Source: a virus. Taken from it: 64,000 bases of DNA. A program made the translations under genes and the position numbers. Below, one piece after another: positions 9,851-43,045 of this stretch. The stretch is taken from IMG/VR virus record IMGVR_UViG_3300008952_000006, positions 62,001 to 126,000 of that record; one strand, given 5' to 3'. Each line of letters opens with the position of its first letter. The stretch's first letter is position 1. The notes below the pieces were generated by a model that worked only from the letters and a program-made list of their open reading frames with translations, was not told where the DNA came from and searched no databases.

Positions 9851-11071
9851 TTAAACCATCCTCACGGGCATGGGTTGTGGCTGCTTCGATTTTTTATTAG
9901 CTCTAATTAATCCAAATGCGCCAAGACCGGCTGCGCCTCCACCAAGCATCAACATTTGGTTATGCTTCTTGGCTGCCGCTTTTGATGCCTGGGCCGCACG
10001 TATCGCACCAACGCCGCCTACACCGAGACCCATGAGGTGCTCTGGGTTAGTAAGCCCTAGCCCTTCAAGCCCTTTGTAGATGCTGGAGGGGGATATTTTC
10101 CCGTCTGGGTCACGAATCGCTCTACCAATATCGCCCATAAGTACCGGAACACCGGACACGGCGCTGCCGCCCTTCCTGCCAGCAACCCCGGCCATGTATT
10201 GATCCTGGTGGCCTTTAAGTTTTTTGGTCCACTCCGCAAGCTCAGTGGCGTCTGTGGGTTTTGGGGTCTTCATTTTCGCGAGCGCGTGCTCATAAGCCCT
10301 TTTATTGACAGCGTTCCATTCGGCTCCCTTGGCTGTATTTGATATCTGGGTTTTAAGCTTTTTCCCACTCTCAGCAAGGGTGCGGCCCGTCTCCCGCAAA
10401 TAGGCTCCCGACCCTGGCGCGACAGCCTCTGCAACGCCTGCGACACCCCTGCCCGTAGCTCTCGCCGCCCCGCCTACTCCGCCCTTTGTGAGATTCCAGG
10501 CTTGTCGGAAATAGCTGGGTGTTGCGGGGGTAGCATCCATCATGCCCTTGGTGTACGAGCTTGCGTCGTCTATCCCAGAGCCGACAAACTTTGCTGCCTC
10601 ATCAACAGCACCTTTAGCTTTTGGTGCAGCGTGTCTGCCAAGCCAAGTAAACGGCTTCATGGCAGTTTTCTCCATGCGGAGAGCCTCTATTAGAGCAGCT
10701 TTTTTATCTTCAGGGCTTGCTGTCTTTACTTTTGGAAGTTTCTTATTTTTAGGGATCTTGATCTTTGGGAGGGCGTCTTTCTTAGCCGTTGTGACTGGCA
10801 CCTTCTTTACTTGTAACTTTTTAAGCTTAGCAAGCTGGCCTACGCCACCTTTTGCGCCACCTTTGGGCTTAATGTCAGGCTGTGGCAACGGCTTCAGGGA
10901 AACAGACTTTCCTTGCTGTTGCGAGATGAGTTCTTTTGTTTTATCACGAGCAACTTGCCGTACCTTTAGCTTGGCCCCGGCGGTCTTCAGTCCAGTAAAG
11001 AATTCAGCAGCCGCTTGGTGTTTTTCAGCGGAGTCTGTTTCTTTTTTTGCTAATGCCTCAAAAGGGTCCAT
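9851..11071 (-). CDS. Lys/Ala/Gly-rich internal virion protein
   Basis: 406 residues from ATG 11071, selected because GGAG is 8 bases upstream; the longer frame overlaps the previous gene. The first 150 residues are lysine-rich and probably disordered or DNA-binding. The remainder is helical, and the C-terminus has a glycine-rich hydrophobic stretch (LMLGGGAAGLGAFGLI) followed by basic residues. The short motif occurs at GLKTA (27-31), VKTAS and MEKTA, so it may be cut during head maturation. It belongs with other Gly/Ala-rich genes of the block, which look like internal or ejection proteins. No enzyme motif is visible. Confidence 0.55.
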   Translation of the reverse strand: MDPFEALAKKETDSAEKHQAAAEFFTGLKTAGAKLKVRQVARDKTKELISQQQGKSVSLKPLPQPDIKPKGGAKGGVGQLAKLKKLQVKKVPVTTAKKDALPKIKIPKNKKLPKVKTASPEDKKAALIEALRMEKTAMKPFTWLGRHAAPKAKGAVDEAAKFVGSGIDDASSYTKGMMDATPATPSYFRQAWNLTKGGVGGAARATGRGVAGVAEAVAPGSGAYLRETGRTLAESGKKLKTQISNTAKGAEWNAVNKRAYEHALAKMKTPKPTDATELAEWTKKLKGHQDQYMAGVAGRKGGSAVSGVPVLMGDIGRAIRDPDGKISPSSIYKGLEGLGLTNPEHLMGLGVGGVGAIRAAQASKAAAKKHNQMLMLGGGAAGLGAFGLIRANKKSKQPQPMPVRMV

Positions 11072-11081
11072 TTGAAAACTC

Positions 11082-11486
11082 CTATGCCCGCCCTGTGGAT
11101 GTTCTTTGTACATGGCCAAACAGGACAAAGGAAATATTTACAACTAAGCTCCCGCCGCCACCAGCGGTCACAGTAAGCTCTAAATCGCGCCCAAGCGGAA
11201 CACCCAGGTCAATAATATTTGTTACACCCTTGGCTGGCTTAAGCGCTCCCGGCATTTGGCCTTCCCACCTAGCTAGAGGCGCTGGCCCCACCGCTGCTCC
11301 AGCGGTCGTGGCCCCAGGGACCGAGCCTTTTAAAATGTACGAGGTCGGGGTAGTGTTTGCGTGATCAGGAAGCGTCAAGCCTAATTTTATGTACTTACCA
11401 CTACCTGGAATAACAAAAGTTTCAGATTGCCCAGCAGCGACGTCTACTTCGATTGTTCCATAAATTGGGTCTCTAGCTTGTGCCAT
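11082..11486 (-). CDS. small beta-rich virion protein
   Basis: 134 residues, almost all predicted strand, with a Gly-rich loop (TAGGGGSLVVNISF) near the C-terminus. The layout (short N-terminal strand, central Ala/Pro linker, Greek-key-like strands) fits a decoration or head-completion protein. GGAG precedes the ATG. No family is recognised. It is the only clearly all-beta gene between two connector-type genes. Confidence 0.5.
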   Translation of the reverse strand: MAQARDPIYGTIEVDVAAGQSETFVIPGSGKYIKLGLTLPDHANTTPTSYILKGSVPGATTAGAAVGPAPLARWEGQMPGALKPAKGVTNIIDLGVPLGRDLELTVTAGGGGSLVVNISFVLFGHVQRTSTGRA

Positions 11487-11495
11487 ACTTGTCTC

Positions 11496-13012: not shown

Positions 13013-14233
13013 TTAGAACTGCGTAACCTGCGGGAAGGTCTGGCCTTCATCCACAAGGTGGTTACGAGCGCCGAGATCTTCCTCAGCGACAGGCAATCGG
13101 TCACGCTGCGTAGCTGCGTTGTTAGCGGGGGTAGTAAGCGGGTCAACAGAACCAGCATACAGCTCCAACTTACGAACACCGGCAACATTACCAATGTACA
13201 TGCCAATGTCTTCCCAAGCCTCAAACGAGATTCGGTTACGCTCTTTGTCAGCGTAGAACTTCGTCTTGTTGAGGAGCAAGAAGCCACCCAGATATTCAGG
13301 CGCTGTGAACGCATAAATATTACCTGGACGGAGGATGTCAGTTTTCAAAGTACGAACAAACTTACGGCCAATGACCGTGCTGTGCTTGTACCCGTCAACC
13401 ACATTCTCAGCAATGATCTTGTCGCCAAGGTCATTGTGCAACCACGCATTGATATCCTCGAAGTCAGTGTCGGTCAGCAGAAACTGATCGCACCGCATAC
13501 GAGAACCGCGAGTACCTGCGCCAACAGCGCTGCTACCCGTGAACGTTTGGAACAACGCAATCAGGTCCGCTTTGTCAACCGGTACAATTACCGCCTCATC
13601 GCAACCTGCGGCAGCGCCACCAACTGTCGATGGGAACAACGCAGCAGCTTTCACCTTGCCTACTTGAGCGGTAATGGTACCACCACCAGCGGGGTCAAGG
13701 TTAAACGCCGTGAACGCATCAGCGTCAGCATAGGTAGCACCGAACACAAGGCCCTGCGCATCCTGCTGCAATGACTGACAAGCCGACTCGACATGGGTCA
13801 AGAAGACACGGTCTTCAATCTCCTGAATGTCGTTGACGATATTACGCTTAATAATCTGCGTGATTGGCATCACATAGGCCATAAGCTCTTGTTCAGTTTG
13901 TTCAAAACGCTGCGAGCCAACCGTATGGAATGGTACTTCAAAGCGCGGGCCAGTGTAGTATCGAACCGTGGGTTGACCACGGAAAGACATACTCATAGCA
14001 CGGCTTGTTGGTTCCACTTCAACGATCTTAACAAGCGTATCGTGGTTTACACTGACCTGAAGGTCAGATCGGCTTACCGACTTCGGGGGGAGTACTTTGC
14101 GAGCAAAGCTTTCCTCACGCAGACGGTCTCGGATGTAATCGCCACCCAGGGCAGCAATTTTTTCTTTTCCAGCCTCGGTATCGAGCTTACTTACGAAAAG
14201 CTCGTTGAGGACGTCACTAGGTACACTAGACAT
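13013..14233 (-). CDS. major capsid protein, HK97 fold
   Basis: 406 residues. The order fits HK97-type coat proteins: an N-terminal helical arm with RDRLREESFARKVLPP, an E-loop region with strand pairs (VRYYTGPRFEVPFHTVGS), a long spine helix around residues 115-150 (IIKRNIVNDIQEIEDRVFL), and a P/A-domain ending with the strand set YLGGFLLLNKTKFYADKE and EAWEDIGMYIGNVAGVRKLE. The length is typical. GGAGG precedes the ATG. It lacks the KTA-type motif. A hairpin follows the gene, which may help its transcript accumulate. Confidence 0.8.
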   Translation of the reverse strand: MSSVPSDVLNELFVSKLDTEAGKEKIAALGGDYIRDRLREESFARKVLPPKSVSRSDLQVSVNHDTLVKIVEVEPTSRAMSMSFRGQPTVRYYTGPRFEVPFHTVGSQRFEQTEQELMAYVMPITQIIKRNIVNDIQEIEDRVFLTHVESACQSLQQDAQGLVFGATYADADAFTAFNLDPAGGGTITAQVGKVKAAALFPSTVGGAAAGCDEAVIVPVDKADLIALFQTFTGSSAVGAGTRGSRMRCDQFLLTDTDFEDINAWLHNDLGDKIIAENVVDGYKHSTVIGRKFVRTLKTDILRPGNIYAFTAPEYLGGFLLLNKTKFYADKERNRISFEAWEDIGMYIGNVAGVRKLELYAGSVDPLTTPANNAATQRDRLPVAEEDLGARNHLVDEGQTFPQVTQF

Positions 14234-15207: not shown

Positions 15208-16026
15208 TTATGCCTCCTTACCAATCTGGGCCATCAACTTTCTTTTCAGATTGTCAGTGGCCTGTTTACGAGCCATGGGCCCTTCGCTACCGTGAACCTC
15301 GCCGGTCTCCGCACCTTGTAGGGTACTCTCGCCAAATTGCTCATCAGAGCTGAGTGCTGCATTCAACACATCAGCAAGGCTTTGGCCAGCACTAGCTGCC
15401 TTCACCGCCGCCTCACCATCAGCTTCATTTGAAGCTGGCTCTTCTGGTTCGTCGGGTGCAGTTTTCCCGACGTTAAAGATGTCCTCTTCAGACACAGGGT
15501 CTTCGGAGGTACTGCTGTAAAAAGTGTCAGACTCAGATTTGTCTGCCTCATCCGAATCACTTTCGTCGGACTTCAGATTTCTGAGCTTACCTAAAACGTT
15601 TTGGAACATTTCTTCTTTGGCCTCATCGGCCTTACTTTCCTGTTCCTTCTCTTCTTCTACGACTTCCTGCTTGGCAGAAATTCGTGACCGTAGACCCTCC
15701 CGTAACCGACTAGAAACGTCCGCAAGATTAACTACGTTATCTTCCGCAACTGTTTGTGGCTCTTCTTTGGGTGCGTCTGAGGTGAACCTCCCTGTTACGG
15801 GGTCCCTCCCAACGGCTTCTTTGCTAAGTTCTTGGTCAGCGCTTGTGTCAGCAGGGGCTGAAACAGCGTCTAAATTATCGATAATAAAATCTACCGCCGA
15901 GGCTAACTTTTCTACGTATACCGGATCTGTCAAACCAACACTGTTTTCGTTAGGTTTTTCAGATTCGACTACAGCAGAAGAACCGGCCCCAGCAAGCTTA
16001 TCTATTAGATTATTTAATGAAGACAT
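15208..16026 (-). CDS. acidic helical protein, scaffold or core candidate
   Basis: 272 residues, strongly acidic (long Glu/Asp/Ser runs at about 130-185) with a helical N-terminus and a Lys-rich C-terminal helix (MARKQATDNLKRKLMAQIGKEA). It contains VEKLA, LSKEA and a terminal IGKEA, versions of the recurring short motif. A disordered acidic body with a basic C-terminal capsid-binding helix is the usual design of scaffolding proteins. It precedes the capsid gene in the transcript. A GGAGG site is present. Direct proof of scaffolding is absent. Confidence 0.5.
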   Translation of the reverse strand: MSSLNNLIDKLAGAGSSAVVESEKPNENSVGLTDPVYVEKLASAVDFIIDNLDAVSAPADTSADQELSKEAVGRDPVTGRFTSDAPKEEPQTVAEDNVVNLADVSSRLREGLRSRISAKQEVVEEEKEQESKADEAKEEMFQNVLGKLRNLKSDESDSDEADKSESDTFYSSTSEDPVSEEDIFNVGKTAPDEPEEPASNEADGEAAVKAASAGQSLADVLNAALSSDEQFGESTLQGAETGEVHGSEGPMARKQATDNLKRKLMAQIGKEA

Positions 16027-16273: not shown

Positions 16274-16903
16274 TTACTGCTGTAGATGCTGCGCAATAGC
16301 GTCAACGTCATAACCAGCTTCGGCAAGCATTTCGCCAGCGCGCTCAGTTACAGCGTTATCTAGTTGCTCATCATCAATAGCAGCGGAAGATTGCTTAACA
16401 GTTCCTGTGTCGAGGAAAGTCAGAATCTCTTGGGCGCGCTCCATAGAAGCTTGCTCAAAAGCCTGTGCAAACTCAGGATCGACTTCTTGGGTTGCCGCAG
16501 GCGCTTCTTCTTCGCTTGCAGTCTTCAAGAATCGATCACTGGGGCGACCAGAGGCGGTTTTTTCAGTACCACCCTGCTGAATCGAAGTGAGTTCGTCGTA
16601 GAAAGCGTGTGCCATCGTTCGGCCAAGAAAGTCAGCTTCTGCAAGCTTAACTTGGCTTTCATCTTCTTCACCTGCTTCAGGAGCAGCGTCAGCAGCAGCG
16701 GCAGTCTTTTCAACTTCTCCACCCATAGCTTCTTGCAAGATTTCAAGAATGTCATCATCATTAAACTCATTAAGATCAATACCTTCTGCGGCTGCGACCT
16801 TCTCGAGTTCTTCCAACAGTGCGGCCTCAGCAGTTTTTTCAACACCAGAATTGGTGTCAATGTTTCCCTGGGTACCATATGCTTGTGCTAGCAGTTCGTT
16901 CAT
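16274..16903 (-). CDS. acidic core-type protein with many repeated KTA motifs
   Basis: 209 residues from ATG 16903 (AGGAG upstream; a longer frame is less likely). Acidic and helical. It has the highest density of the recurring motif: VEKTA (21-25), LEKVA (33-37), VEKTA (64-68), QVKLA, TEKTA (113-117) and FLKTA (125-129). The block LGRTMAHAFYDEL (93-105) is a short conserved-looking helix. It lies directly after the prohead protease gene, so it may be a protease substrate, such as a core or internal protein cut into peptides during maturation. Cleavage is inference. Confidence 0.6.
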   Translation of the reverse strand: MNELLAQAYGTQGNIDTNSGVEKTAEAALLEELEKVAAAEGIDLNEFNDDDILEILQEAMGGEVEKTAAAADAAPEAGEEDESQVKLAEADFLGRTMAHAFYDELTSIQQGGTEKTASGRPSDRFLKTASEEEAPAATQEVDPEFAQAFEQASMERAQEILTFLDTGTVKQSSAAIDDEQLDNAVTERAGEMLAEAGYDVDAIAQHLQQ

Positions 16904-16985
16904 TTTAATTCTCCTTAAGAATTTTCGGTTTTGACTGCGTCCCAGCATCGTCTCTGATAAAAAATTTCATCTAGATACCCCTGGA

Positions 16986-18674
16986 CTAAGAAAACTTGAC
17001 CGCAAGATTGTTCAACGACTTGTCAAACATACCCGAACTTTTAAAGCCCATACCCAAACGGGTAAGACCTACAAAGACCGATGTGGCCAAGATTGGATGC
17101 CTCTCGATAAACCTATCAAGCGGACCAGTTTTCTGGTGAGTACGCCGTCTTTTGCCTCTTACGTGCGCACCGTAAAGATAAGCCATGGGCAAAACACCAA
17201 CCAACGCTAAAGGCAGCTTAGCTGTTTTTGTTAGTTGAGAACCCATCATAAACTCATCTTCCAGACCTGGGCCGTTAATGGCCGAGAGTAATCCTATATC
17301 ATCACTTGTAATATGAGCAACAATGGAACCTATTTTGTCCATCAATTGCTCACGATAACCATTGTATCCTGCTGCAATACCTTTAAGAAGGATCTTTTCG
17401 TCAGGACTAATATCAATATTGCTCACTTGCCCCTCTTTGTGCAGGCTAAGCATACCCGGAGATAGCTGGCTTGTGGAAGGTGGGGAAGTTCTAATAATCA
17501 TTATACGCCTTGTAATAACAGGGCCAAACATACTACGTTTTGGTATAATGTCCATAAGCATATCTTTAATTGGGCACGAGAACTGGCTACGATTCCCAAT
17601 CTGGATACTTCTGTCTACATCTCCGGACGGCGCAAACGTATGATTTGCCGCAGACAGCCTGTCGGCCAAAGGCTTCTTACCAATCCTTATGAGGATAATC
17701 CTCTGAAACTCTTTTGGCTTGAGAACTATCCCTGCTGACGCGGAGGTTGTCAGCGCTTTCTCAATGGGGCTTTTTGCCATCCTATCCAAAATATTACTAG
17801 AAATATCAGGCTCATGGCGTTCTATGTGGGGCATAACTCGTGCAGAGAGCGCTGGTACCTCTTTAAGAATAGTTGATATTTTACTCCGCGCAGCCATCTT
17901 CTCCTTCAGAACTTGTACCGCGTACCCGTCTCGGATGCCTGCGTCTTCTGCTGCAGCTGCGGAGGAGGTGCCGTAGATGGAAGCCACTTTTGCCATCGCA
18001 TAGCTAGTGCGGTCAGCACCAATAACAACAAAGCTAAGGTCGAAAAACTTAGGCTTTGGGTTGTAGACAAAGACTTTGCGGCCATCCGGGAATGTTTTGC
18101 CCATCATGGTCTTTGTATGAGCGCAGTAGTCCGCCCGGGTCTTGGACTTATGGCCACAGATAGAGCAGATATCATATTTAACGCGACAACCCATACTAAC
18201 TGCAGGGTTTTCGCCAGCGTCTAATTTTCGCACAAGGTCCCCGTGGCCTTCAGCCTCAGCCTTGGCTCTGTCAATCATCAAGATTAACTCAACCCGGTGC
18301 ATCACAGGATTATAAATAGTATGGACCACTTTGCCGACAGAGCGCTCTATGTCTTTGTTTTTGTGGTGTCGGTATATACCCGCGTCGGTAAATGTTTTGT
18401 GCCCAGAATTACAGGTAGGGTCTGTGGGGTTTAGCTCCTTCTCCTCAAAATAATCACCGTTAATATTACTGCCATAATACTCACCGGCCCCTAGAGCGTT
18501 TACTAGAACGTACAGATGGCCGTCACTGGGTTTAATATCATCGATGTATGAAGAAATTTGGGGATGTAGGCTGCTGCAAAAAGCCGTCTTAACAAATCCA
18601 ATTGACGGATTAATGGCCTGTACAAAGATGTTTCCATCTTCATCGGAGCCTGGGAATGTAAGTAACTTAAGCAT
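16986..18674 (-). CDS. prohead maturation serine protease
   Basis: 562 residues. An assemblin-like protease fold is suggested by SNINGDYFEEKEL (69-81), a His pair in GIYRHHKN (H103/H104), the strand block SVGKVVHTIYNP and MHRVELILMIDRAKAE, then NPAVSMGCRV with S160 as the likely nucleophile, and KFFDLSFVVIGADRTS (209-224). This order (His, then Ser in VS(M/I)G) fits the gp21/HK97-type prohead protease group. A Cys4-like insert (C170, C173, C184 and nearby His) may bind zinc. Residues after 230 form an extra domain of unknown role ending in a hydrophobic HPILATSVFVGL stretch. It carries FVKTA, AKVAS and TKTA motifs itself, possibly self-cleavage sites. Confidence 0.7.
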   Translation of the reverse strand: MLKLLTFPGSDEDGNIFVQAINPSIGFVKTAFCSSLHPQISSYIDDIKPSDGHLYVLVNALGAGEYYGSNINGDYFEEKELNPTDPTCNSGHKTFTDAGIYRHHKNKDIERSVGKVVHTIYNPVMHRVELILMIDRAKAEAEGHGDLVRKLDAGENPAVSMGCRVKYDICSICGHKSKTRADYCAHTKTMMGKTFPDGRKVFVYNPKPKFFDLSFVVIGADRTSYAMAKVASIYGTSSAAAAEDAGIRDGYAVQVLKEKMAARSKISTILKEVPALSARVMPHIERHEPDISSNILDRMAKSPIEKALTTSASAGIVLKPKEFQRIILIRIGKKPLADRLSAANHTFAPSGDVDRSIQIGNRSQFSCPIKDMLMDIIPKRSMFGPVITRRIMIIRTSPPSTSQLSPGMLSLHKEGQVSNIDISPDEKILLKGIAAGYNGYREQLMDKIGSIVAHITSDDIGLLSAINGPGLEDEFMMGSQLTKTAKLPLALVGVLPMAYLYGAHVRGKRRRTHQKTGPLDRFIERHPILATSVFVGLTRLGMGFKSSGMFDKSLNNLAVKFS

Positions 18675-19328: not shown

Positions 19329-20240
19329 TTAACCCGCGTAGCTTAGAAGCTCGGCACCAGTGCCCGCAAAAGCACCTCGAAGAAGGCTGTCCTTCCTCTT
19401 TGAGTCACTCAAGTGCTTCGAGACCTCTGTAAGAGTTTTTATATCGATTGGTTGGATGCCCTCATCTTTGAACTGTAAGGATCTTTTTAGGAAGGAGCCC
19501 GCTACAAGAGGATCACTAGCCATTACTGGGTTAAACTTATAGAGGGTTCTAAAAATCTTGGAAACATCCCCTGGACGCTCTTTTTTTAGACCAGGATTCT
19601 CGTCCATCATCTTGTTAAAGTATTTCTTCTTCTTCAGAGGCTCCGCTATTAGCTCTTGCATCCCCTCTACGCCTTTGATCCCTCCAGCGAGAGCGGCACC
19701 GCCAGCACCAAACATTAAGGCTTTTCTGCCAACGGTATCTTTACCTATCAGCTCTTGGATAAGAGTTTTCTTGGGGGCTCGCTTTGCCATCGCCGCAGTG
19801 GCGAGTGCCCCTCCGCCAAGCAAAACACCTTTACCCAAAGCACTTCGGATGCTTTTAGCAACATCATCAGCATTAACAGCCTTGCCCCCCACATCTTTGA
19901 AATAGTTCAATATCTTTTTCAGATTGTCACTCTTGGGTGCTGATGCGGGCGGTGGCGTCTTGGGACTGGGTGAGCCCTTGGGAGACGCGCCCATATCTTT
20001 GTCGGCGTTGGGAAACATCCCCTTGATAGCTTTATCAAGGCGCGGGTCATTCTCTAAGCTCTTAAACTTATATTTTGACTTTGGGGGCGTGCTTGCCGAG
20101 TAGCTTGGCTTTCGTGATTTCCGCCGAGTACCAACATTATAAGATTCGACACTCCCTGCATCGATCTTCTTGCCCGTGCCACCAGCGTACGTATAAGCGG
20201 CTAATTTAGTTAGTAATCGTATTCTTCGTTCTAAATCCAT
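19329..20240 (-). CDS. basic Gly/Ala-rich internal virion protein
   Basis: 303 residues from ATG 20240 (GGGGT about 6 bases upstream; ATG 20252 is an alternative). The N-terminus is MDLERRIRLLTKLAAYTYAG with the motif LTKLA at 10-14. The middle is Lys/Pro/Ser-rich and probably disordered. A glycine-rich hydrophobic stretch (GVLLGGGALATAAMAKR; ALMFGAGGAALAGGIKG) lies around residues 155-205. The C-terminus is helical. Stop and start spacing to both neighbours is a few bases, so it is co-translated with them. No enzyme motif; an internal or ejection role is inferred. Confidence 0.5.
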   Translation of the reverse strand: MDLERRIRLLTKLAAYTYAGGTGKKIDAGSVESYNVGTRRKSRKPSYSASTPPKSKYKFKSLENDPRLDKAIKGMFPNADKDMGASPKGSPSPKTPPPASAPKSDNLKKILNYFKDVGGKAVNADDVAKSIRSALGKGVLLGGGALATAAMAKRAPKKTLIQELIGKDTVGRKALMFGAGGAALAGGIKGVEGMQELIAEPLKKKKYFNKMMDENPGLKKERPGDVSKIFRTLYKFNPVMASDPLVAGSFLKRSLQFKDEGIQPIDIKTLTEVSKHLSDSKRKDSLLRGAFAGTGAELLSYAG

Positions 20241-20242
20241 GT

Positions 20243-20782
20243 TTAACCCCATGCCCTTCTCTGGAAGGGATTTTCTACATCCGGTGAGCGCCACTGGCGA
20301 ATAGTCTCTGGTGAAATATCTGTATTAGGGCGCGGGGCTACGCTAGCCGCCACCTGCCTCATGTCAGGATTTTTCGCTAAGTAGTAAGCTAGAAGGGCAC
20401 CGCCACCAGTCAAGATTGGGTGGTTCCGAGCAAATCCCACCACACCCCCGGGCACGAACTTCCGCTTGTAATACTGTGGAAGGGTATGCCCTTCCATGGT
20501 GGCCTTATATGCCTTACCGGGCTTCATCCCAGCTTTAATCTCCGCATACTCCCCCCGGGTAATAGGATCTAAGCCCCGTTGGCCAGGAACCTCTTTTAAC
20601 CGCTTCCCGTACATGGGGTGCATGGGGTTCCACTGTTTAGGGCCAAACATGAGCCCGCCAACCCCACCGGAAACAAGATCACCAGGGACCCTGGCTACAC
20701 GTGCCATCGGGCCATAAATTATGTCCCCAAGGCTTGCGGCAAGCTTTGCTTTTGCGGCTCTTTTTTCAAGGGGGGTCATCAT
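20243..20782 (-). CDS. small internal virion protein with HPIL membrane-like segment
   Basis: 179 residues. The N-terminus MMTPLEKRAAKAKLAAS carries LEKRA (5-9) and KAKLA. A Gly-rich hydrophobic segment FARNHPILTGGGALLAYYLA (about 120-140) is similar to the HPILATSVFVGL segment of the protease C-terminus. The C-terminus is acidic and hydrophilic. GGAG is 8 bases before the ATG. It overlaps closely with neighbours. It may be an internal protein released by cleavage or an ejection protein. Function unknown. Confidence 0.5.
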   Translation of the reverse strand: MMTPLEKRAAKAKLAASLGDIIYGPMARVARVPGDLVSGGVGGLMFGPKQWNPMHPMYGKRLKEVPGQRGLDPITRGEYAEIKAGMKPGKAYKATMEGHTLPQYYKRKFVPGGVVGFARNHPILTGGGALLAYYLAKNPDMRQVAASVAPRPNTDISPETIRQWRSPDVENPFQRRAWG

Positions 20783-20784: not shown

Positions 20785-21978
20785 TTAAACGACTCCTGGT
20801 CCTTGGGGCCCCTGGGGTCCGGGAGATCCCGGGGGCGCTGCGGCAGGTGGGCCCGCCATGCCCGGGCCAACAGGTGCGGGTGCGCCTGCAGGGGGTTGCG
20901 CGCCTTGCGGCGGCATCGCTCCCTCAGGCCCGGGCGGTGGCGGCGGTTGGGGAGCGCCAAATAATTGGGCTGCTGAAGATGACATATCGGGGCCTTTCAG
21001 GATAGCCAAAAGCTCCTGCATGCCCATCTGTGTTCTGACAACAGCCGCCTGTGCCATTTGAAGTTTCCCCGAGACGCTCTCAAGCTCTTGGGTTAGACCC
21101 GTAACTGGGTTTGACATCAGCATGCCCATCCCAAGCTTCTTAAGCTCCTCACCGTGCCCAAATTCAACTAAGCTTCCAACATGCTCACCAATAACGTTTA
21201 GTAGCCCTTCGGAAGCACCGCCAGCCTCAATTGCATAACCAATAATACCTGCGCTATTCCCGGCCCGAGAAGCCTCTTTGCACAGGTCCTTAAGAGCTGC
21301 CAGCTTGATGCAGAAGTGGTCGCCAAGAACTTCTTTTTCAGATTCAGCGTTTTTGTTCTCTGCGTGTAGGTCCAAAAATTCACGTGCGGCGTCCCTGGTG
21401 CCGGGGTTAACGTGAGGCTCGATACCAGCCTTCTTTTCTAGCGAGGCCCCGTAAGTGTTGAGGAATCCCTGAACCTGCTCTGGCGTGTAGTCTGGGTATG
21501 CCTGCTTTACGGCGTCCCTGGCTGCCACCCCCTGCTTAATAAGCGTGCGCACGGCGCTGACATTAGCGGTTTTTTCCATACCTGATCCAGTAAACACGTC
21601 CTCCAAATCAATGGCCTCTTGGCCAGCGATATACCGAAAGTGGCTAGGCACAGCAGGCCTGTTCACAGAGGCCGTCTTCTCTTTTGTGGGGGACAGGCTT
21701 TGAGCCACTGCTGTGGCCTCCGCCATGGGGAAAGTGATATTTTTATCGAAGCCAAGCTTAAACATGGTCGAAAAAGTATCATTATTTGCATACTCGGAGA
21801 CACGTTTAATCTGCTCGAGATTCAACCCAGACTCTTTGGCAAACTCTAGAATGGTGTCATTCAGCGGAGTCTTGTTCTGAACATACCGTACAGCAGCCTG
21901 CTTCCCCATGTGCCTAAGCTCCGAAGAAGAGAGACCAGCGTCTTCCTTGGTTAACAAATACTTTTCTAGTTCGTTCAT
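20785..21978 (-). CDS. helical virion protein with proline/glycine-rich tail
   Basis: 397 residues. Residues 1-320 are helical and contain MGKQA, KEKTA, MEKTA, LEKKA and IKLAA, all versions of the recurring motif. Residues 335-397 form a Pro/Gly/Ala-rich tail (PQPPPPPGPEGAMPPQG and later GSPGPQGPQGPG), which resembles collagen-like or disordered spacers. It is the gene right after terminase in the transcript, and its ATG overlaps the terminase stop (TAATG). It may be an internal head or portal-associated protein. No enzyme motif is visible. Confidence 0.5.
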   Translation of the reverse strand: MNELEKYLLTKEDAGLSSSELRHMGKQAAVRYVQNKTPLNDTILEFAKESGLNLEQIKRVSEYANNDTFSTMFKLGFDKNITFPMAEATAVAQSLSPTKEKTASVNRPAVPSHFRYIAGQEAIDLEDVFTGSGMEKTANVSAVRTLIKQGVAARDAVKQAYPDYTPEQVQGFLNTYGASLEKKAGIEPHVNPGTRDAAREFLDLHAENKNAESEKEVLGDHFCIKLAALKDLCKEASRAGNSAGIIGYAIEAGGASEGLLNVIGEHVGSLVEFGHGEELKKLGMGMLMSNPVTGLTQELESVSGKLQMAQAAVVRTQMGMQELLAILKGPDMSSSAAQLFGAPQPPPPPGPEGAMPPQGAQPPAGAPAPVGPGMAGPPAAAPPGSPGPQGPQGPGVV

Positions 21979-24115: not shown

Positions 24116-25772
24116 AGCGGGTCTTCCCTTGCGAATCTGTATATTTGTACAGGTGCTTTTTGTTCTTATAAGCCTTATAAAATTGCTTTTGCTGCGTAAA
24201 CTTTCCTCGCGCAACACTATCCATCCATTGGTCAGTTGTTCTGGGGGTTGTCTTGCCAAACATTCTTCCAATGACACCCGGCTTTGCGCTTTCCGGCGCA
24301 ACGCTCTGATACCTCCGGACATTGACAACACGCTCTTCTTCGGGGCGATGCTTCTGACCACCCAGCCTTCTAGCGCGGCCCTCGGCCTGCAAGACTCGCT
24401 GAGGGTTGAAGTGGCCGTCAAGAGAGTAAAACGCAGTGGAGTTTCTAAGGTCCAAGCCTTCAGCGCCCGCCCCACTCAGCACGATAACTCGCTTCTTACC
24501 CTCTTTGTAGTCTTTGACCCCAGCCTGTCTCGAAACGCCGGTAACCTTATCACCACCAACGGTGGTGCCCTTGCCCACAAATACTGCGTGAGAGATACCT
24601 AGGTCTTTTAGGCCAGCAGAGATAACGTCTATGCCGCCGCGCACAAGGTTTGAATAGAGGACCACTTTATTATCTGGCGCTTCTGCCAAATGCTGTTTAG
24701 TGTCCTGCAGTAACTTGCTAACTTTGGGGGTTCTCTTTGCGGACTGCGCAAGCGTTATATCGCTCCGCCCAGCCTCAAGAGAGTTCGAGAGTTGACGCGC
24801 CTGGGATATCTGCGCGAAGAGCATCTTGGCGTCTTTTACAGTTATATTAGGGTCTTTCTTCGTGATGTACTTTTTTATGGGGCCCAGTTTATCTAGAGAC
24901 AATTGGTACAGCCTGTACTGCTCCTTAGACATAGGGACTTCAACAACCTTGGTTTCCTTCCGAGGCATTGACTTGCCTTTCAGGCTCTTAGTCTCTACGT
25001 AGTCTATTTTTGTGCCTGTCCGCTCCCGTAACTCTGCGACATTCCGCATGCCGACAACTTTCTTCTTCGAATCGTTAAACCCCTTAGTAAACCCAATTGT
25101 CTCGGTGTACCTCCGCTTAAACTGCTTAGGGGTCATATCCCGAGTCCCCTCGGACAGGGTAAGCAACGTGGCTAACTCAGAAGGTCTATTATTAATCATA
25201 GACGCGGTGAGGCCCATAAAATTAGTAGCTAATTGCCGTGCCGCCTGGAGCGCCTTGTAGGTGCTCGCGCTCTCATTACGTGTCTTGTGAAACTCATCCG
25301 CAATGATGGTGTCTGCGCCCGTTCTCTTCATAAAGCCAATAGGGTCACGGCGAAACATCGCGTAGCTTACAATTGTATAGTCCTTGTCGGACTCCTCCCC
25401 GGGGCGGATGTACCCAGACTTTTTTGACTTCTCTGAGGAAGACCCAATTGCCTGCCATGTACTATTAGTGAACTTCTCAACACCGTTTGTTGCGAAGTTG
25501 TCTCGAAGGCCCGAGGGAACAATGACAATAGCCTTTCTGGCCTTGCCCTCATGCTTCATTTTCTCAAAGCCGTAGATGCTGGTGACAGTCTTCCCTGTGC
25601 CCATCTCATGGGCGAGGATCATCTTGCCCTTATTAGCGAAAAGCCTATCAATGGCCGCCGCCTGATGTTCATAGGGCTTAAACCACTCTTTCAAGGAAGG
25701 AATCCCTGTCCCGTGGGCAGGTTTATCCACTTTCTCAGCAGCCTTCTTTATTAAGTAGTCACCTAAGGGCAC
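23997..25772 (-). CDS. SNF2-like superfamily 2 helicase in the virion block
   Basis: 591 residues from GTG 25772 (AGG at 8 bases upstream). Two RecA-like domains: Walker A-type MGTGKT (57-62), DEFH motif II (159-162), SAT-like GLTASMINNRP, and motif VI QAEGRARRLGGQ near residue 460. These are hallmarks of SNF2/DEAD-like helicases that move on DNA or remove bound proteins. The N-terminus carries LIKKA (7-11), a version of the motif that marks head proteins here, and the C-terminal 100 residues are basic. It lies between terminase and internal-protein genes, so it may be packaged and act on host or phage DNA early. Packaging is inference. Confidence 0.75.
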   Translation of the reverse strand: MPLGDYLIKKAAEKVDKPAHGTGIPSLKEWFKPYEHQAAAIDRLFANKGKMILAHEMGTGKTVTSIYGFEKMKHEGKARKAIVIVPSGLRDNFATNGVEKFTNSTWQAIGSSSEKSKKSGYIRPGEESDKDYTIVSYAMFRRDPIGFMKRTGADTIIADEFHKTRNESASTYKALQAARQLATNFMGLTASMINNRPSELATLLTLSEGTRDMTPKQFKRRYTETIGFTKGFNDSKKKVVGMRNVAELRERTGTKIDYVETKSLKGKSMPRKETKVVEVPMSKEQYRLYQLSLDKLGPIKKYITKKDPNITVKDAKMLFAQISQARQLSNSLEAGRSDITLAQSAKRTPKVSKLLQDTKQHLAEAPDNKVVLYSNLVRGGIDVISAGLKDLGISHAVFVGKGTTVGGDKVTGVSRQAGVKDYKEGKKRVIVLSGAGAEGLDLRNSTAFYSLDGHFNPQRVLQAEGRARRLGGQKHRPEEERVVNVRRYQSVAPESAKPGVIGRMFGKTTPRTTDQWMDSVARGKFTQQKQFYKAYKNKKHLYKYTDSQGKTRYVYAKKPTTQKKSPGLFSRFFGRNSAKASPGQPTQPQSV

Positions 25773-28856: not shown

Positions 28857-30845
28857 TTACAAAGAAACGTCTGCCCTAATCTGAAGCTTCTTTAATCCTT
28901 GCGAGGCGCGCTCAATACCCTTTAAAGCGGAAGATACCGCGCTTTCGGGAACATCAGAAAGGCCTAGGCGGATACCCACTAGCAACTCTGCGAGCTTGGA
29001 AGCCGCCTCCTCCAGAGTAGGGATCGCATCCACATACCCCTGGATGTTTTCAGGGGTAACAAAATTCAAAGAAAGGACGGAGTCCACGGTGTTCGGGTTT
29101 GTCAGGGCGGCAGCCTCTTTTACCAAGTCAATATGGATGACTTCTGCCAGCTTCACGGCCTCGCTAGAAACAGTGGGACTTTCCTCGGGAAGCCCAAAGC
29201 TGTTCTTAGCAACAAAGGAAAAGGCTCCTTGTTTGGTGGCAGCAGCCAGTTTTTTCATAGCTCCTGCCGGTGTATCCCCAAGGACCCCAAGGAACAGTAA
29301 TGCGTCTGCAGCGTTAAGCTTAGCGTTGGCGGTTTTGTCCAAGATGGCCACAGGCCGCCCACTAAAGGAGAACTCGGAGCCATCCGAACGGAGACAAACC
29401 TCCATCATTCGGTCCTGACTGGAGGCAATTTTGTCTACACCAACAGTATCGGAAGCGTAGCGGCCTCCGAAGGCAAGAGGAACGAACACAGCGCTATCGG
29501 GAAAAAGGTAGTCATTGCCCTTGATAAGAACTGGCTGGGTTACACTTGCTAATTTCAAAGCGCCACGACCGCGCAAAGGATGATCATATAGATAGGAAGT
29601 CTCCCCATCAAACTCAACCTTATTGAGGACTTTTATAGGCTCTGTGACCGCAGCGGTCTTCAGAACAAAGACGCCATCACCGAGGGGCTCCCCGCCTGAC
29701 AGCGCCGCCAGATTCAGATCTCCACAACGAACACCGGCCACTTTTTCCTGCAACGAGGCTCCGGACTCACCAACTACCAGGCAAAGGTCCATGTCGTGGC
29801 CGTCGAAAGACACAAGGTTGCTAATCACAGCGGCGCGCTGCGCCCGACCCGTTTTAGTCATAACTGAGTACACGCCATCAGCCTTAACGGTCTTTAGATT
29901 GGCTGTTTTCTCCACCGGGACAAGCTCTTTGTTCTCAGCGGAAACAAGCAACGTGTGACCATTATTGATAACGCCCTGCCGGATCTCAACAGGGATTTCT
30001 TGCCCTTCTACATTGTTTAGGAAAATCTCCTGCGAGACCCCATCGACAGAAGCCATCTTAAGCTTGTAGCCGCCACCAACCTTGGACACAACTGTTGCGT
30101 CAAAGTCATCCATTGATTTGTGTTCCTCAACAGCGTCTTCCTTTTCGCCCATTCTCTCTGCCAGCTTCACCACAGCCGCACTAAAAGCCTCATTAAGAAC
30201 AACGGCATCCTTCAAAGATTGGTCACCAGCAACCTTTTCCAGAAAAGAGGCTACCGCTTGCGTGTCAATTCCTTTGCCAAGCGCGTCTAGGACAGATGCT
30301 TGCTTCACTGTAGTATTGACCGCAGTGGCTCCGCCACCAGTCATGGCTGCTGGATCTTGGGGCCCAAAGTTCTGAGCACCCGCAGAGGTGGCTGGTGACA
30401 TTGCGGGCGCAACAACATAGGGGCTCATGTCAAACAACGCTGCGGAGACCCTCTCCTCATTTAGTGGCAGGAAACGCCCATCGGGGGAAATGAAAACATC
30501 AAACGAGTAAGCCTTCTTGTTTTCAACAATAATAGGAATCCTAAGGGCTCGTTCATCTTGCGGGGTTTCCTTTTCGGGGGAACGGATCATCTCGCCCATC
30601 CGCGCCGCACCCGCAGGAGAAGGCATATCGGGAGCCTGGGTAACCTTGAAAACCCCGTACATATACCCAAGGCTCTGGTCTTGCCCCTCAATAGACATAT
30701 TGACCTGATACTTTCCAAGATAGGAATGCTGCTTATACAGGTGTGCCAACAGCTCACTTGGATAAGTGCTAGGGTTATCGCCAAGGATGAACTTGGATGC
30801 CGTTTTCTCAAAAGTTGGCGTTCGAAGTTTTCTAATAAGATCCAT
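28857..30845 (-). CDS. virion protein with dense recurring KxA motifs
   Basis: 662 residues from ATG 30845 (AGGT site 7 bases upstream; the longer frame overlaps the next gene). The N-terminus has FEKTA at 12-16. A beta-rich first third (VNMSIEGQDQSLGYMYGVFK) is followed by a long mixed region with about 15 copies of the K-x-A motif, such as VEKTA, QEKVA, VLKTA, VDKIA and LDKTA. It may be a structural or internal protein, cut by the prohead protease at some of these sites. No family is recognised. Function is unknown. Confidence 0.5.
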   Translation of the reverse strand: MDLIRKLRTPTFEKTASKFILGDNPSTYPSELLAHLYKQHSYLGKYQVNMSIEGQDQSLGYMYGVFKVTQAPDMPSPAGAARMGEMIRSPEKETPQDERALRIPIIVENKKAYSFDVFISPDGRFLPLNEERVSAALFDMSPYVVAPAMSPATSAGAQNFGPQDPAAMTGGGATAVNTTVKQASVLDALGKGIDTQAVASFLEKVAGDQSLKDAVVLNEAFSAAVVKLAERMGEKEDAVEEHKSMDDFDATVVSKVGGGYKLKMASVDGVSQEIFLNNVEGQEIPVEIRQGVINNGHTLLVSAENKELVPVEKTANLKTVKADGVYSVMTKTGRAQRAAVISNLVSFDGHDMDLCLVVGESGASLQEKVAGVRCGDLNLAALSGGEPLGDGVFVLKTAAVTEPIKVLNKVEFDGETSYLYDHPLRGRGALKLASVTQPVLIKGNDYLFPDSAVFVPLAFGGRYASDTVGVDKIASSQDRMMEVCLRSDGSEFSFSGRPVAILDKTANAKLNAADALLFLGVLGDTPAGAMKKLAAATKQGAFSFVAKNSFGLPEESPTVSSEAVKLAEVIHIDLVKEAAALTNPNTVDSVLSLNFVTPENIQGYVDAIPTLEEAASKLAELLVGIRLGLSDVPESAVSSALKGIERASQGLKKLQIRADVSL

Positions 30846-30856
30846 TTTATTACCTC

Positions 30857-31339
30857 TTAGACCCAGGGGATTGGTGGTGACCCTGGTGTAGTTTGCGTTC
30901 CGGATGCTGCCCACAATGATAATACCCCGTTTAGGACTATTGTTGAAGGCATAGTAGTAGCTGAAGGTGGCAATGTTGCCAAAATAATTAAATTTAAGGG
31001 GACCACAGGGGGTGCGTGAACAACCGGTGCGGGTGGCGTTACGTTCCCCGGGGCCGCGCACATTGTGGCGAATACGGTAAACCCCGCCGCCAAAGTTTCG
31101 TGTGATAGAATATTAACAGCGCCCCCCTGGGCGGCTTTAACAGTCGTAATAAATAGTTCCTCTCCTGCGTCTAAGCCGAGCGGGGTCCATTTAGGTATTT
31201 CACCGTTCTTAAAAAAAGCTCGAGCCACCTTTGCCCAACCGGAGACACAGTCCATATCTTCAGCCCCGGCAGCCAGTGCACCAGATACAGCAAGCTGGAT
31301 TGCCTCATCTACGTCTGCAATGGCTGTGGCGTAAGGCAT
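30857..31339 (-). CDS. small virion protein with hydrophobic Pro-rich C-terminus
   Basis: 160 residues from ATG 31339, chosen for its AGGTGA site 9 bases upstream. Residues 1-50 are helical (MPYATAIADVDEAIQLAVSG, then an acidic patch). The second half is Ala/Val-rich with Pro-rich spacers (VTPPAPVVHAPPVVPLNL). Its start overlaps the spike gene stop by one base. No family is recognised. Its place next to the spike candidate suggests a baseplate or tail-tip partner. Confidence 0.45.
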   Translation of the reverse strand: MPYATAIADVDEAIQLAVSGALAAGAEDMDCVSGWAKVARAFFKNGEIPKWTPLGLDAGEELFITTVKAAQGGAVNILSHETLAAGFTVFATMCAAPGNVTPPAPVVHAPPVVPLNLIILATLPPSATTMPSTIVLNGVLSLWAASGTQTTPGSPPIPWV

Positions 31340-38700: not shown

Positions 38701-39029
38701 TATTCTGTCCCGTCTATGATGTAGCTATATCTGCGTGTGATCTTTGGGAGGTTTAGTACCTTGAGTTTTTTATTGGAACTGACGACCTTCCCTGTCGCGT
38801 TGTCAACAAGAGAAAAATCACCAAAGATACCTTGCGCCCAGGTGCGGCCTCGGAGACGCGCCTTCTTCTGGCTTGCGATGTCGTCCTCATCCACAGGGTC
38901 ACCAACGTATATTTCCTTGGCCACAAGTGTGTGCTTCTTCCCTACCAAGGGAAAGAACCGTTTAATTTCTTCTATCGTCCCGTCTTCAAGGGTTTTCATC
39001 ACCCTCTGGGGATCGAGCACATTAGACAT
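32754..39029 (-). CDS. rpoBC: single-chain RNA polymerase, fused beta and beta' halves
   Basis: 2091 residues with no internal stop. Beta half: FIDPVHTPEGKRSGISGHL near 380, VPFLPSDQANRAGMATRHL, NLRVGYLPYKGLVFEDGIV, DIGDKLSGRHGNKGVI near 774 and GGAQRFGELGLYAMLAHGA near 955. Beta' half: LKPEKGGLFDEDITGGPGG then IALASSLPNPVFE; VLPPLFRPITAMEGGDLN; a rudder-lid region; VDRRQDISMRSVIVP near 1300; NADFDGD at 1419-1425 (the three catalytic Asp); trigger-loop region ending TTSGARAGLIKK; and a zinc site with CELSKGLCSKCYG. The N-terminal zinc-binding domain of beta' is missing. E. coli beta plus beta' total about 2750 residues, so this chain is compact. No alpha, omega or sigma is seen here. Position in the virion block leaves open whether it is packaged. 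Confidence 0.93.
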   Translation of the reverse strand: MSNVLDPQRVMKTLEDGTIEEIKRFFPLVGKKHTLVAKEIYVGDPVDEDDIASQKKARLRGRTWAQGIFGDFSLVDNATGKVVSSNKKLKVLNLPKITRRYSYIIDGTEYQADNQWRLKSGVYARRKANGDLESQFNLTKGRGFRLGFDPTKRRFLMSYGSTNVQLLPVLQALGVDDDTIRSSWGPELYTSAVAAKKRGELVKLSRALARNVPVKTDAEATPVIQEVLKDTGLREDTTAVTLGQAFSSVTGGALLASSQKLVDINKGTAQVDNRDSLQFKELWSIDNHIPERIQNSKRRITYKMMNNLDRKDNVRAIVTPDIFNVPIKAFFTSTSLSQQTSQVNPVDMMGGFLRTTIMGTGGIQSDAAISEEAKLIDSSFLGFIDPVHTPEGKRSGISGHLSLGVRKKGVTPRIRVFDVNAGKYVEKSPSELSVGNVAFSDQYSKGPNKSLTPKSDHVVVIPAGGEDPSKVAADQVDYVLESPKQMFSITANLVPFLPSDQANRAGMATRHLSQSISLKNPEQPLVQVVSGNKHEDYSTWEKIVGRFTSHSSPVSGFVSSVSSSKVIIKSADGKKHDVQLYDNFPLNDKKAFITSNSLVKKGDRVSEGQIIADTNFTNNGTLALGTNLRVGYLPYKGLVFEDGIVISESASEKLTSVHLHKERAYVDKTMLLGLKKFRAHYPGSISEENATKLDADGVIKKGEIVNPGDVITTVLQKVEPSKEQLLLRGIHKSLVRPYKNKSVVWDKPYRGEVTDVVRNGREVLVHVKTEEPADIGDKLSGRHGNKGVITAVIPDEEMPKDSDGNALQIALNPSGVPGRINPGQVLETALGNVAAANGEPYAVENFQSDDRKKVIRVKAHTRTIQTKSGPKKVEVKEHERELGYRDAVDAALKGAGLSETRELFDPETGKSLGTVLVGHQYFLKLMHQVDKKLSARSHGYGYDYDANLVPKSGGKTGGAQRFGELGLYAMLAHGATANIRDALTYKGDKAQDEVWTAIQTGAILPSPKPSFAYEKFLAYMNALGLNVEKDGNGLIVSPLTDKQIVAMSSGEIKDGSRVIRGKDLKPEKGGLFDEDITGGPGGKNWSHIALASSLPNPVFEKGIRSLLGLTGKEYDAIIASKLGFDSEGNLVEATEDTASGPSALALRLSSVDIEGDLAAAKEQIKTARRSDLDRVNKKIKYLLMLQKNKLSAEEAYVIDNVPVLPPLFRPITAMEGGDLNIDGVNMLYRDIALLNKKLDEAKGVLPESAVAGLRSDLYEATEALMGVQTATQGSVTVDGQPAPPGILHILSGRSSPKQSFFLQRLVDRRQDISMRSVIVPDMNLHLDEMGLPRKGAMKIYRPFVVKELVKMGYSPLKAREEVEKNTTLANKALDVAVSKRPVLFKRDPVLHKFGIMAFKPRLHKESAIHIHPLVVGGFNADFDGDTMAVFVPVSQEAVDESYKMMPSKNLFNPATGRVMYQPTLEGQLGLYLLTKWGKDVKKSYRNSKDALKDAKEGNISMSDVVQVGASKTTAGRIIFNSKLPKKVQSDRYLTDPTAVVDKKLLQNILHDIATKTPAEFADTADKIKELGFGHAYNIGFSFGLDDFKSLRDIREKHMAVARKQESVIQKQVGLNMISREAGDAKLVDLYTAASKAMSVEAKKLLDKSGNKLKAMESAGVKPSWAQLQQMLLSPMLVENAKGRVIPVPVSRSYAEGLQSSDYWVTTSGARAGLIKKVQSVQLPGALNKQIANTTISYVIAGDDCKTTRGIALAAADSDIVDRYLAKPVSAPGLKIPSGSLITPNMLSRLRSSKVDKVLVRSPLKCELSKGLCSKCYGIADNGNPIAKGVNIGLIAGTSIGERGTQLSMKAFHTGGVAGGGSSVVSGIHRVSQLLKMPEKLANSAILSPATGTISSVKVSPIGGHDITIGNQEVYVPGNLEVSVKSGAKVRRGQSLTGGIINPHELLEKTNIETVQRYLADEIHKVYEKEGIKKRNVEVVTKALTNLGKVTDPGDSSKFIRGDYISLSHANSLNKAMKNPIKTEPMLRGVETLPLDQTTDWLARLQYRKLKETFIRAANEGWESDIHGLHPAPGLAFSAEFGKKDKLTKGPY

Positions 39030-41380: not shown

Positions 41381-41391
41381 CTATACACCCC

Positions 41392-42063
41392 TCATGGAAG
41401 CAGCTTCTTAATTTGTACAAGAAGAGATCCAGAGGCCGCTTCTAGGAAATCTTTAACAGAGGTAGACTTCATAATTTGAACGTCGTCCTCATTTTTTCCA
41501 TTAAACATGGGCTTCCTTTTCATGTCTAATGCTCTTTTTACTTTATCTTGCTGGGAAGAATTAATAAATTCTACAAGATATGGGTTACTTGGTTCAAGCG
41601 ATCCCGGCCCGTAAGAGAGGCCGTAGTCTAGCATAACGGCAGCAACGTACTTGTAAACCTCCGAAGAAATTTCTGCATCTTCACGCAATTGGGACATTAT
41701 ATCTAGGGCTAAGGCTGCTCTATGGGGGGTAGGTCTTTGTACGATATCGAACTTGGGAGTTAATCCCACAAACCCCAGGACCACTTTTTCAAAGATCTCC
41801 CAGCGATTATACGGGGAGTCTGAGACATGGCAGGTCCTGATAGCCTGTATTTTGTTCCGGTTTACCTCAGAAATGGTTGTTCCCCAGGACCGTCCAATCT
41901 CGAGCCAGCACGTTTCCGGTTCCCAGCCAAGATATTCGGACCCAAACTCCCGAAGGAGCATTAGGTTGAGAACAAGTGGATGAGTCTCGCGATTCGTAAA
42001 AGCTTGCCTGGGAGTTTGCGGCCCCGTGCTGGCAACAAGATGTGGATTAGTAGTTATGGTCAT
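41392..42063 (-). CDS. unknown head-block protein, upstream of portal
   Basis: 223 residues, mixed helix and strand. Landmarks are LREFGSEYLGWEPETCWLEI near residue 35 and YKYVAAVMLDYGLSYGPGSL near residue 140. It lies between the portal gene (downstream) and a KxA-motif head protein (17-base overlap). It lacks the KTA motif. GGATGATAG precedes the ATG. No family is recognised. It may be a portal-associated or head-completion protein. Confidence 0.45.
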   Translation of the reverse strand: MTITTNPHLVASTGPQTPRQAFTNRETHPLVLNLMLLREFGSEYLGWEPETCWLEIGRSWGTTISEVNRNKIQAIRTCHVSDSPYNRWEIFEKVVLGFVGLTPKFDIVQRPTPHRAALALDIMSQLREDAEISSEVYKYVAAVMLDYGLSYGPGSLEPSNPYLVEFINSSQQDKVKRALDMKRKPMFNGKNEDDVQIMKSTSVKDFLEAASGSLLVQIKKLLP

Positions 42064-43045
42064 CTATCATCCGCGCAATCGCTTGCTTGTGTGTTACAGG
42101 CAAGCTGGAGAGCACAGATGCAGGATCTGCTGAGAATTGCTCTGAAAAGCCCTCCCCAAACGAATCTGTTAATCGCTCAGAGCCCCCATTCTGGGTCCAG
42201 TGAGCCACGGTGTCGGCTGTGTATTCGCGGCCATTGATTTCAAAAGGCTGGTCCGCAGACGCATTTTTTTCGACCGATGTCCCAAATACTGTCTGGTAAG
42301 GGTCTGGTATTACCTTATTATATAGGCCAGTAATGCCGTGGCGGATGTCAAAGTCAGCGATATCTTCGGCCAACTGGTCAACGTCTGCAGACGCGGACTT
42401 AACCAGAAGAGCCTCAAGCTCAGCAATTCCATCGGCCTCCATAACCGCTAGTTTCCTGGTATCGATACCTAAAGAAAAGTCACTCCCAAGCTCAGCGCGG
42501 GAGTAGTCTGCCATATCATCCGAAAAAAGGTCGTTAAAAACCCCGGCCTCTTTTACCTGCAGCATCAACCGTCGCTTACCCCTTGGGCTACACGCGGTGA
42601 AGGCATCTTTAACAACCTCGTACTGGTCGTTTTCGGTCACACCAAAAAGCTCTTCCAAGCTTCGGTCCTGAGCCTCTCCGCTATAGCCAAGATCTAAGGC
42701 TGCGGTTTTGCACAGAGTTTCTGGTGGAGTAAACCCAAAAGCGGTCAGAGCGGTGCTCAGTTTCTGGGCCGCCTCTTTTTGAAGCTCCTCGGGCAGGGCG
42801 TCTCCGTGAGCCGAAAAGTACATCGCGGAAGCAATAGTGTTACCAGCATCGACAATGGGTAGCTTATGGGCTTTTCCTCGCCCCGTGTCCACCACTAGAG
42901 CGTAATCCCCGTCTTTAGGGGTCGTGTTCTGGGATAGATCAGCGGCCACCTTAACAATAGGGGGAATTCCTTTTTCGGAAAACTCTTTTCGGAGGAGGAG
43001 GCCTCCATCATCGTAGTGATCTAGCACTGCTGGTAATTCTTTCAT
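42047..43045 (-). CDS. head-block protein with KxA motifs
   Basis: 332 residues from ATG 43045 (GGGAG five bases upstream; an upstream GTG overlaps that site). A compact alpha-beta domain (DYALVVDTGRGKAHKLPIVD) is followed by helical stretches. Motifs IVKVA (30-34), LQKEA, LCKTA, QVKEA, VKSA and VEKNA are spread along it. It opens the minus-strand portal operon. It may be an internal or core protein that is processed. No enzyme motif is visible. Confidence 0.5.
   Translation of the reverse strand: MKELPAVLDHYDDGGLLLRKEFSEKGIPPIVKVAADLSQNTTPKDGDYALVVDTGRGKAHKLPIVDAGNTIASAMYFSAHGDALPEELQKEAAQKLSTALTAFGFTPPETLCKTAALDLGYSGEAQDRSLEELFGVTENDQYEVVKDAFTACSPRGKRRLMLQVKEAGVFNDLFSDDMADYSRAELGSDFSLGIDTRKLAVMEADGIAELEALLVKSASADVDQLAEDIADFDIRHGITGLYNKVIPDPYQTVFGTSVEKNASADQPFEINGREYTADTVAHWTQNGGSERLTDSFGEGFSEQFSADPASVLSSLPVTHKQAIARMIDDHNY

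Follow-up and report, generated by a model that had tools for sequence, protein, structure and literature searches.

Recurrence and distribution of the motif

The window analyzed here is a stretch of 64,000 nucleotides (bases 62001-126000 of virus record IMGVR_UViG_3300008952_000006, which is 173,034 bases long; genome G000), and our subject is a five-residue motif, hxKxA, that recurs in proteins encoded around its prohead protease. The minus-strand block of the window contains the genes for the capsid, protease, terminase, portal, sheath, and a fused RNA polymerase, and the plus-strand block is the replication block. In the motif, h is an oily or hydrophobic residue and x is any residue, the KTA form being scored as [AILMVFYW]xKTA; an example peptide bearing the predicted cut motif is SGVEKTAEAALL. 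The open reading frames of the window are annotation-like, with start codons assigned mechanically, and all expected counts come from shuffles that preserve the composition of each protein. Records of close relatives, with proteases 65-80% identical, include sizes of 155-181 kb, and annotated phages with homologous proteases (32-42% identity) include Vibrio phage D69, Salmonella phage Arash, and Bacillus phage G.

An earlier note on this DNA had counted at least eight EKTA copies and had seen none in the plus-strand replication proteins. Indeed, the 35 minus-strand proteins hold eight EKTA copies, compared with 0.27 expected (one in the 9851-11128 protein, three in 16274-16948, and two each in 20785-21978 and 28857-31061), as well as 15 copies of [AILMVFYW]xKTA, compared with 2.0 expected, and the 23 plus-strand proteins hold neither. 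The N-terminal copies listed in that note are also present, although their positions vary with the chosen start codon, and one of them, GLKTA, lacks a hydrophobic first residue. In an unbiased scan of three-residue patterns, EKxA ranked first after zinc-finger patterns in G000 and in record G002, and near the top in G001, whereas LxKxA ranked near the top in the structural blocks of Arash and D69, but not high in an Arash block of mostly nonstructural genes. Moreover, in each of four genomes, the N-terminal 50-residue segments contain 9-23 copies of hEKxA, with ∼1 expected. The observation of a recurrent motif is therefore confirmed, and it is wider than first stated.

It is head proteins that carry the motif, and the proposal that it marks virion proteins in general had to be given up. 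In the window, head-type proteins contain 38 copies of hxKxA versus 8.7 expected, whereas the sheath, tube, and connector proteins contain none versus 2.4 expected; the earlier note, too, had noticed no copy in the sheath. Several window proteins are called "head" on the basis of gene position and motif, and because this set was picked with the motif already known, Arash and D69 provide the fair tests of head against tail. Divided by gene order around the capsid gene, the head blocks contain 38 copies versus 5.7 expected (Arash) and 36 versus 5.5 (D69), that is, 6 to 7 times above expectation, whereas the tail blocks are at chance (7 versus 6.3 and 2 versus 2.3, respectively). Further, the Arash genes annotated as structural contain 58 copies versus 26.3 expected, and the remaining Arash genes are at chance (32 versus 32.6).

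A profile scan identified 79 loci whose proteases share 30-100% identity with that of the window, and we surveyed the same-strand neighbors of 54 dereplicated loci (138,063 residues). Near these proteases, EKTA occurs 89 times versus 3.7 expected and hxKxA 764 times versus 219.5, with hxKxA above expectation in 54 of 54 loci. Near-miss patterns show no excess, at observed-to-expected ratios of 1.10 (hxRxA), 1.06 (hxKxG), 0.96 (hxKA), and 0.69 (hxxKA). The phage G block is also enriched, whereas the T4 control has no hxKxA excess and is enriched, in its virion block, for the [LI]xE pattern of T4 itself (z 3.7), and a 50-kb block of the SPN3US control is at most marginal (11 versus 5.8; z 2.3 for a stricter form of the motif). 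At 47 sites in window proteins with orthologues, K is kept in 0.74 and A in 0.70 of the orthologues, compared with 0.51 for the flanks (p 2e-6).

Several of these proteins are rich in K, A, and E, and the survey loci are interrelated, which would be in keeping with a pattern produced by composition, a helix-forming habit, or shared ancestry. Since the loci share ancestry, the z values overstate independence, and our argument therefore rests on the per-locus consistency and the near-miss controls. Such an origin is nevertheless very improbable, given the gap between the shuffled and the observed EKTA counts, the near-miss ratios around 1, the retention of K and A while the flanks vary, the chance-level counts in tail and replication proteins of the same phages, and the lack of such an excess in T4, with at most a marginal one in SPN3US.

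The protease, its own sites, and the likely bond

The protease and its three motif copies are as follows.

16986..18674, minus strand: prohead (head maturation) protease, 562 residues, assigned from PHROG 18299, an AlphaFold2 (AF2) model, and a match to T4 gp21
18582..18596, minus strand: N-side site FVKTA, residues 27-31, where a 31-residue propeptide is predicted to be cut off
17982..17996, minus strand: C-side site MAKVA, residues 227-231, candidate analogue of a release site, which would split the protease from its C-terminal half
17220..17234, minus strand: LTKTA, residues 481-485, a third copy, located in the C-terminal half and complete in 82% of orthologues

A prohead protease in the same block had been proposed in the earlier note, and the 16986-18674 protein matches the head maturation protease family PHROG 18299 with an E of 1e-11. 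Pfam and NCBIfam contain no model matching it, a PDB sequence search gave no match, and an hhalign comparison of a 10-sequence protease alignment with T4 gp21 and SPN3US gp245 gave none either. A first AF2 model of all 562 residues from 10 close sequences was poor (predicted local distance difference test, pLDDT, 48) and was not used. A model of residues 1-255 from a 50-sequence alignment reached a pLDDT of 73.5, with a well-folded catalytic domain at approximately residues 34-217. Foldseek matched this model to 5jbl (E 1.4e-4), and VIA-align superposed it on T4 gp21 with a Z of 13.0 and a root-mean-square deviation of 2.6 over 149 residues, far ahead of the next matches; these were herpesvirus proteases with a Z of 5.0-6.0, a range of common arrangements that is unconvincing alone. 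By predicted fold, the window protease is gp21-type. Among its candidate catalytic residues, Ser160 and His104 are invariant in the 50 sequences, and His103 and Asp108 are nearly so. The gene order protease, multisite protein(s), capsid is common to the window, Arash, and D69.

Two motif copies border the modeled domain. The N-side site falls in a linker (residues 18-33) that has pLDDT <50 and is predicted to be disordered, and the C-side site falls in another such linker (residues 218-243) just past the domain. Among 55 divergent proteases, hxKxA is retained in 53 at the N-side, often as FEKTA and with unconserved neighboring residues, and in 42 at the C-side. Consistent with this, Lys29 and Ala31 are nearly invariant in the 50-sequence alignment, unlike most of the first 50 residues. 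In phage G gp19, the copies aligned with FVKTA and MAKVA are LVKTA (ending at residue 45) and LEKVA (ending at residue 250); motif copies in D69, Arash, and the homologue at locus L080 align with them too, the N-side copies of Arash and D69 being LTKQA and LEKSA. In this last homologue (L080:4267-6993), and also in L079, an intein-like insertion of several hundred residues interrupts the protease homologue; it lies right after the SMG of the presumed active-site serine motif and before C (SMG-[C...HN]-C).

Over the 54 loci, the motif extends to h-E-K-[TVLE]-A-[SA]-A. Compared with residues that follow other alanines, the residue after the motif is enriched for Ser (3.3-fold) and Ala (1.7-fold) and strongly depleted of Ile, Trp, Pro, and Val. 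This preference looks like the P1' and P2' positions of a cut after alanine, which makes the bond after the motif alanine the most likely scissile bond. Proline depletion was dropped as proof of that bond, as it is also found at +1 and +3. Cleavage after the lysine (hxK, then TA) or by a host protease would be a different explanation, and one that agrees with the depletion of proline directly after the lysine and with the frequent use of lysine at P1 by serine proteases. We consider it unlikely, because the conserved Ala and the S/A-then-A preference are the most marked small-residue steps and would fall at P1, P1', and P2' if the cut follows alanine, and because a host protease would not account for the co-occurrence of the motif with this protease family or for its head-only use. 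Further, herpesvirus proteases, which belong to the wider fold, cut between Ala and Ser, with Ala at P1 and Ser at P1'.

Predicted substrates and the shared N-terminal leader

The copies outside the protease that we regard as candidate sites are listed below.

16274..16948, minus strand: core-type protein adjoining the protease, with four motif copies (VEKTA, LEKVA, VEKTA, FLKTA)
15208..16026, minus strand: acidic scaffold-like protein with five motif copies (IDKLA, VEKLA, LSKEA, VGKTA, IGKEA)
28857..31061, minus strand: 734-residue head protein with nine or more sites; FEKTA is at 84 (this start) or 12 (orthologue start)
42047..43057, minus strand: 336-residue protein with six sites, at 34, 92, 115, 148, 218, and 262
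20785..21978, minus strand: 397-residue protein with sites at 24, 134, 180, and 232
9851..11128, minus strand: head-type protein with MEKTA (152-156)
20199..20213, minus strand: LTKLA near the N-terminus of the 19329-20294 protein
25740..25754, minus strand: LIKKA near the start (residues 7-11) of an SNF2-type helicase that is a candidate for packaging
14153..14167, minus strand: KEKIA (residues 23-27) in the major capsid protein, a possible end of an N-terminal propeptide

Many sites thus lie in core-like proteins beside the protease, single ones lie near N-termini, others lie in the protease itself, and one lies at the capsid N-terminus, a layout that, by analogy, is what T4 would predict (PMC9026906). 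In the 16274-16948 protein, K and A are identical at all four sites in 11 of 11 orthologues, and the core-like proteins beside the Arash protease contain eight and nine sites. The K and A of LTKLA are identical in five of five orthologues, its second residue never is, and its flanks average 0.24; the full LIKKA motif is found in 60% of 15 orthologues. The earlier note had noticed no copy in the capsid, and this needs correcting: the capsid contains the weaker match KEKIA, which is invariant in six capsid proteins of the lineage. KEKIA lies two residues from the position of LVKEA (Arash) and LTKEA (D69), which occupy capsid residues 25-29, and overlaps them in a mafft alignment.

The proteins of this block show several other features. 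A mobile helical module of ∼50 residues (..VKALMAKGMGxKEAIKAAYPDYTPEQV..), bounded by motif copies, occurs within or at the start of otherwise different proteins, namely in window protein 20785-21978 (residues 133-187), G002 17865-18446, and G007 151610-153082. The fused RNA polymerase (window 32754-39029; 2091 residues) lies in the virion gene block and matches bacterial beta (∼250-1030) and beta' (∼1140-2070); in Arash, two genes carry the annotation RNA polymerase beta. Of the motif copies in the G007 orthologue, four fall within residues 1-232 and one more is at 829, which suggests that the fused polymerase may be packaged and trimmed. The tail sheath protein (window 3815-8281; 1488 residues) matches sheath families (phrog_2839, phrog_279) in its last 200 residues only. 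Lastly, a 2560-residue protein (window 59380-63783, continuing to record position 129062) begins MSYKYFGKLA, with a motif copy at residues 6-10 that it has in common with its 2579-residue G002 counterpart.

A second type of N-terminal copy is part of a leader, MNALEKYAAKK..L, which starts 24 proteins whose bodies form 20 clusters (blastp after residue 40). These proteins are scattered over G000, G001, G002, and other records, and, judged by eye, most look small and basic. The leader contains LEKYA followed by A, often with a second hxKxA ∼10 residues further. An exact search with the degenerate DNA pattern located the leader in 11 stretches of viral sequence, almost all from records of this lineage; nine matches in bacterial or archaeal genomes look like chance and were set aside. 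It was not seen on phage G gp19, Arash gp222, or D69 VPHD69_0270. Leader-type N-termini in the window include the following.

20756..20770, minus strand: MTPLEKRAAKAKL, the leader-type start of the 20243-20782 protein, with the motif retained in 83% of 12 orthologues
2470..2484, minus strand: leader-type LSKEAAKSKL of the HEYGH protein (window 1519-2514), a candidate packaged metallopeptidase

The HEYGH protein matches Pfam Zn_peptidase_2 with an E of 0.007, below the cut-off, and a G002 protein with a matching HELGH segment begins MNALEKYAAKSAL. In another leader protein (7476-8042 of the G000 record, locus L019), LEKIA is followed by GTYYHGAPSAVEEKILREGL, which by eye resembles the start of an ADP-ribosyltransferase, cf. 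T4 Alt; Pfam gives no match, and this reading was rejected.

The internal proteins of T4 have in common a leader of 10 residues, which directs them into the head before being removed (PMC9026906). This T4 capsid-targeting sequence (IPI-III, Alt) is a short N-terminal leader on otherwise different small internal proteins that ends in the cut motif (PMC9026906), but its sequence is unrelated to MNALEKYAAKK..L, and the leader of the window lineage stands on ∼20 body clusters, often with two motif copies. On this analogy, the likeness is functional and not one of sequence, and the leader probably directs unrelated small basic proteins into the prohead. The shared leader and the head-only spread would fit equally well with a motif that is a docking or scaffold-binding signal, bringing proteins into the prohead core without being cut, and in T4 a single leader serves both purposes (PMC9026906). 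Docking by itself has only a slim chance of being correct, slimmer than that of a cut after lysine, as it leaves unexplained (i) the precise placement of copies at the two borders of the catalytic domain of the protease, (ii) the up to nine or more copies per core protein, and (iii) the S/A-A preference after the motif.

The cleavage reading and known prohead proteases

We infer from the sequences and the protease model that hxKxA, in its extended form h-E-K-[TVLE]-A then [SA]-A, is the recognition sequence of the gp21-fold prohead protease of this lineage, and we put the probability of this reading at roughly 0.86. The protease would carry, when first made, an N-terminal propeptide as well as a C-terminal half, would release itself at the two motif copies bordering its catalytic domain, and, inside the prohead, would cut core and scaffold proteins many times and remove the N-terminal leaders of packaged proteins. 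MNALEKYAAKK..L would have spread over many unrelated small basic proteins, with prohead targeting as its probable role, like the T4 capsid-targeting sequence. The earlier note had likewise suggested that the copies are protease or packaging sites and had named T4 gp21 and its targeting segments as the parallel; this proposal is supported by the predicted fold, the domain-border copies, the head-only spread, the P1'/P2'-like preference, and the shared leader on unrelated proteins.

Several observations weigh against cleavage by this protease. All characterized gp21-fold relatives cut after Glu (PMC9026906, PMC5694885, PMC10052503, PMC13282480). The C-side site is missing in 13 of the 55 proteases; the capsid site of the window is imperfect, with Lys in place of a hydrophobic first residue; and neither the terminase nor the portal of the window contains a site, as had been noted for the portal. 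The phage G portal has MAKQA, ending at residue 20. Proline is depleted alike at +1, +3, and +5, so the exact bond is deduced rather than fixed. Finally, in mycobacteriophage Alice, whose protease is distantly related, neither a K nor an R version of the motif is clear; a mycobacteriophage version with Arg for Lys was dropped because its z of 4.7 in six-frame open reading frames fell to 2.4 in annotated genes, the same as for a control pattern.

The closest annotated counterparts are phage G gp19, Arash gp222, and D69 VPHD69_0270, homologous proteases with aligned hxKxA at both domain borders and enriched head blocks; Arash and D69 differ from the window in that their capsid site is hydrophobic-first. 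T4 gp21, which cuts after Glu at L/I-x-E sites (PMC9026906), resembles the window protease in its predicted fold, in the position of its gene beside core and capsid genes, and in having sites in core proteins, near N-termini, and near its own ends. It differs in its P1 residue, where the window motif has Ala at P1 and Lys at P3, and in the lack of a sequence match by hhalign. The proteases phiKZ gp175 and SPN3US gp245 are also from large phages, with N-terminal propeptides and autocleavage at the protease C-terminus (PMC10052503, PMC5694885), and SPN3US further favors serine at P1' (PMC10052503, PMC5694885); however, these two recognize S/A/G-x-E and A-x-E, and the SPN3US block has no comparable hxKxA excess. 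Herpesvirus assemblin (pUL26) separates from its C-terminal portion by cutting at a release site immediately past its catalytic domain (PMC4498786), but the structural likeness is weak (Z 5-6) and the spacing of the basic residue differs. A search of open-access papers, which did not extend to the phage G capsid paper, turned up no earlier description of a prohead protease with a K-x-A motif.

Taken together, it is probable, though less so than the recognition sequence itself, that a large, widespread lineage of ∼120-190 kb phages, to which Bacillus phage G is related, uses a gp21-fold prohead protease specific for Lys-x-Ala followed by Ser or Ala, and not for Glu; that its head and ejected proteins can be predicted from sequence; and that the MNALEKYAAKK leader is a second, independently evolved capsid-targeting tag on dozens of mobile cargo proteins. 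If so, Lys-x-Ala would be a new specificity in a protease class in which T4, phiKZ, and SPN3US all cut after glutamate, and it would resemble the Ala-Ser cleavage of herpesvirus proteases. The motif would turn unknown genes of large uncultured phages into predictions of head residence, cut positions, and probable ejection into the host, and the leader may serve to tag foreign proteins for packaging into heads of this kind.

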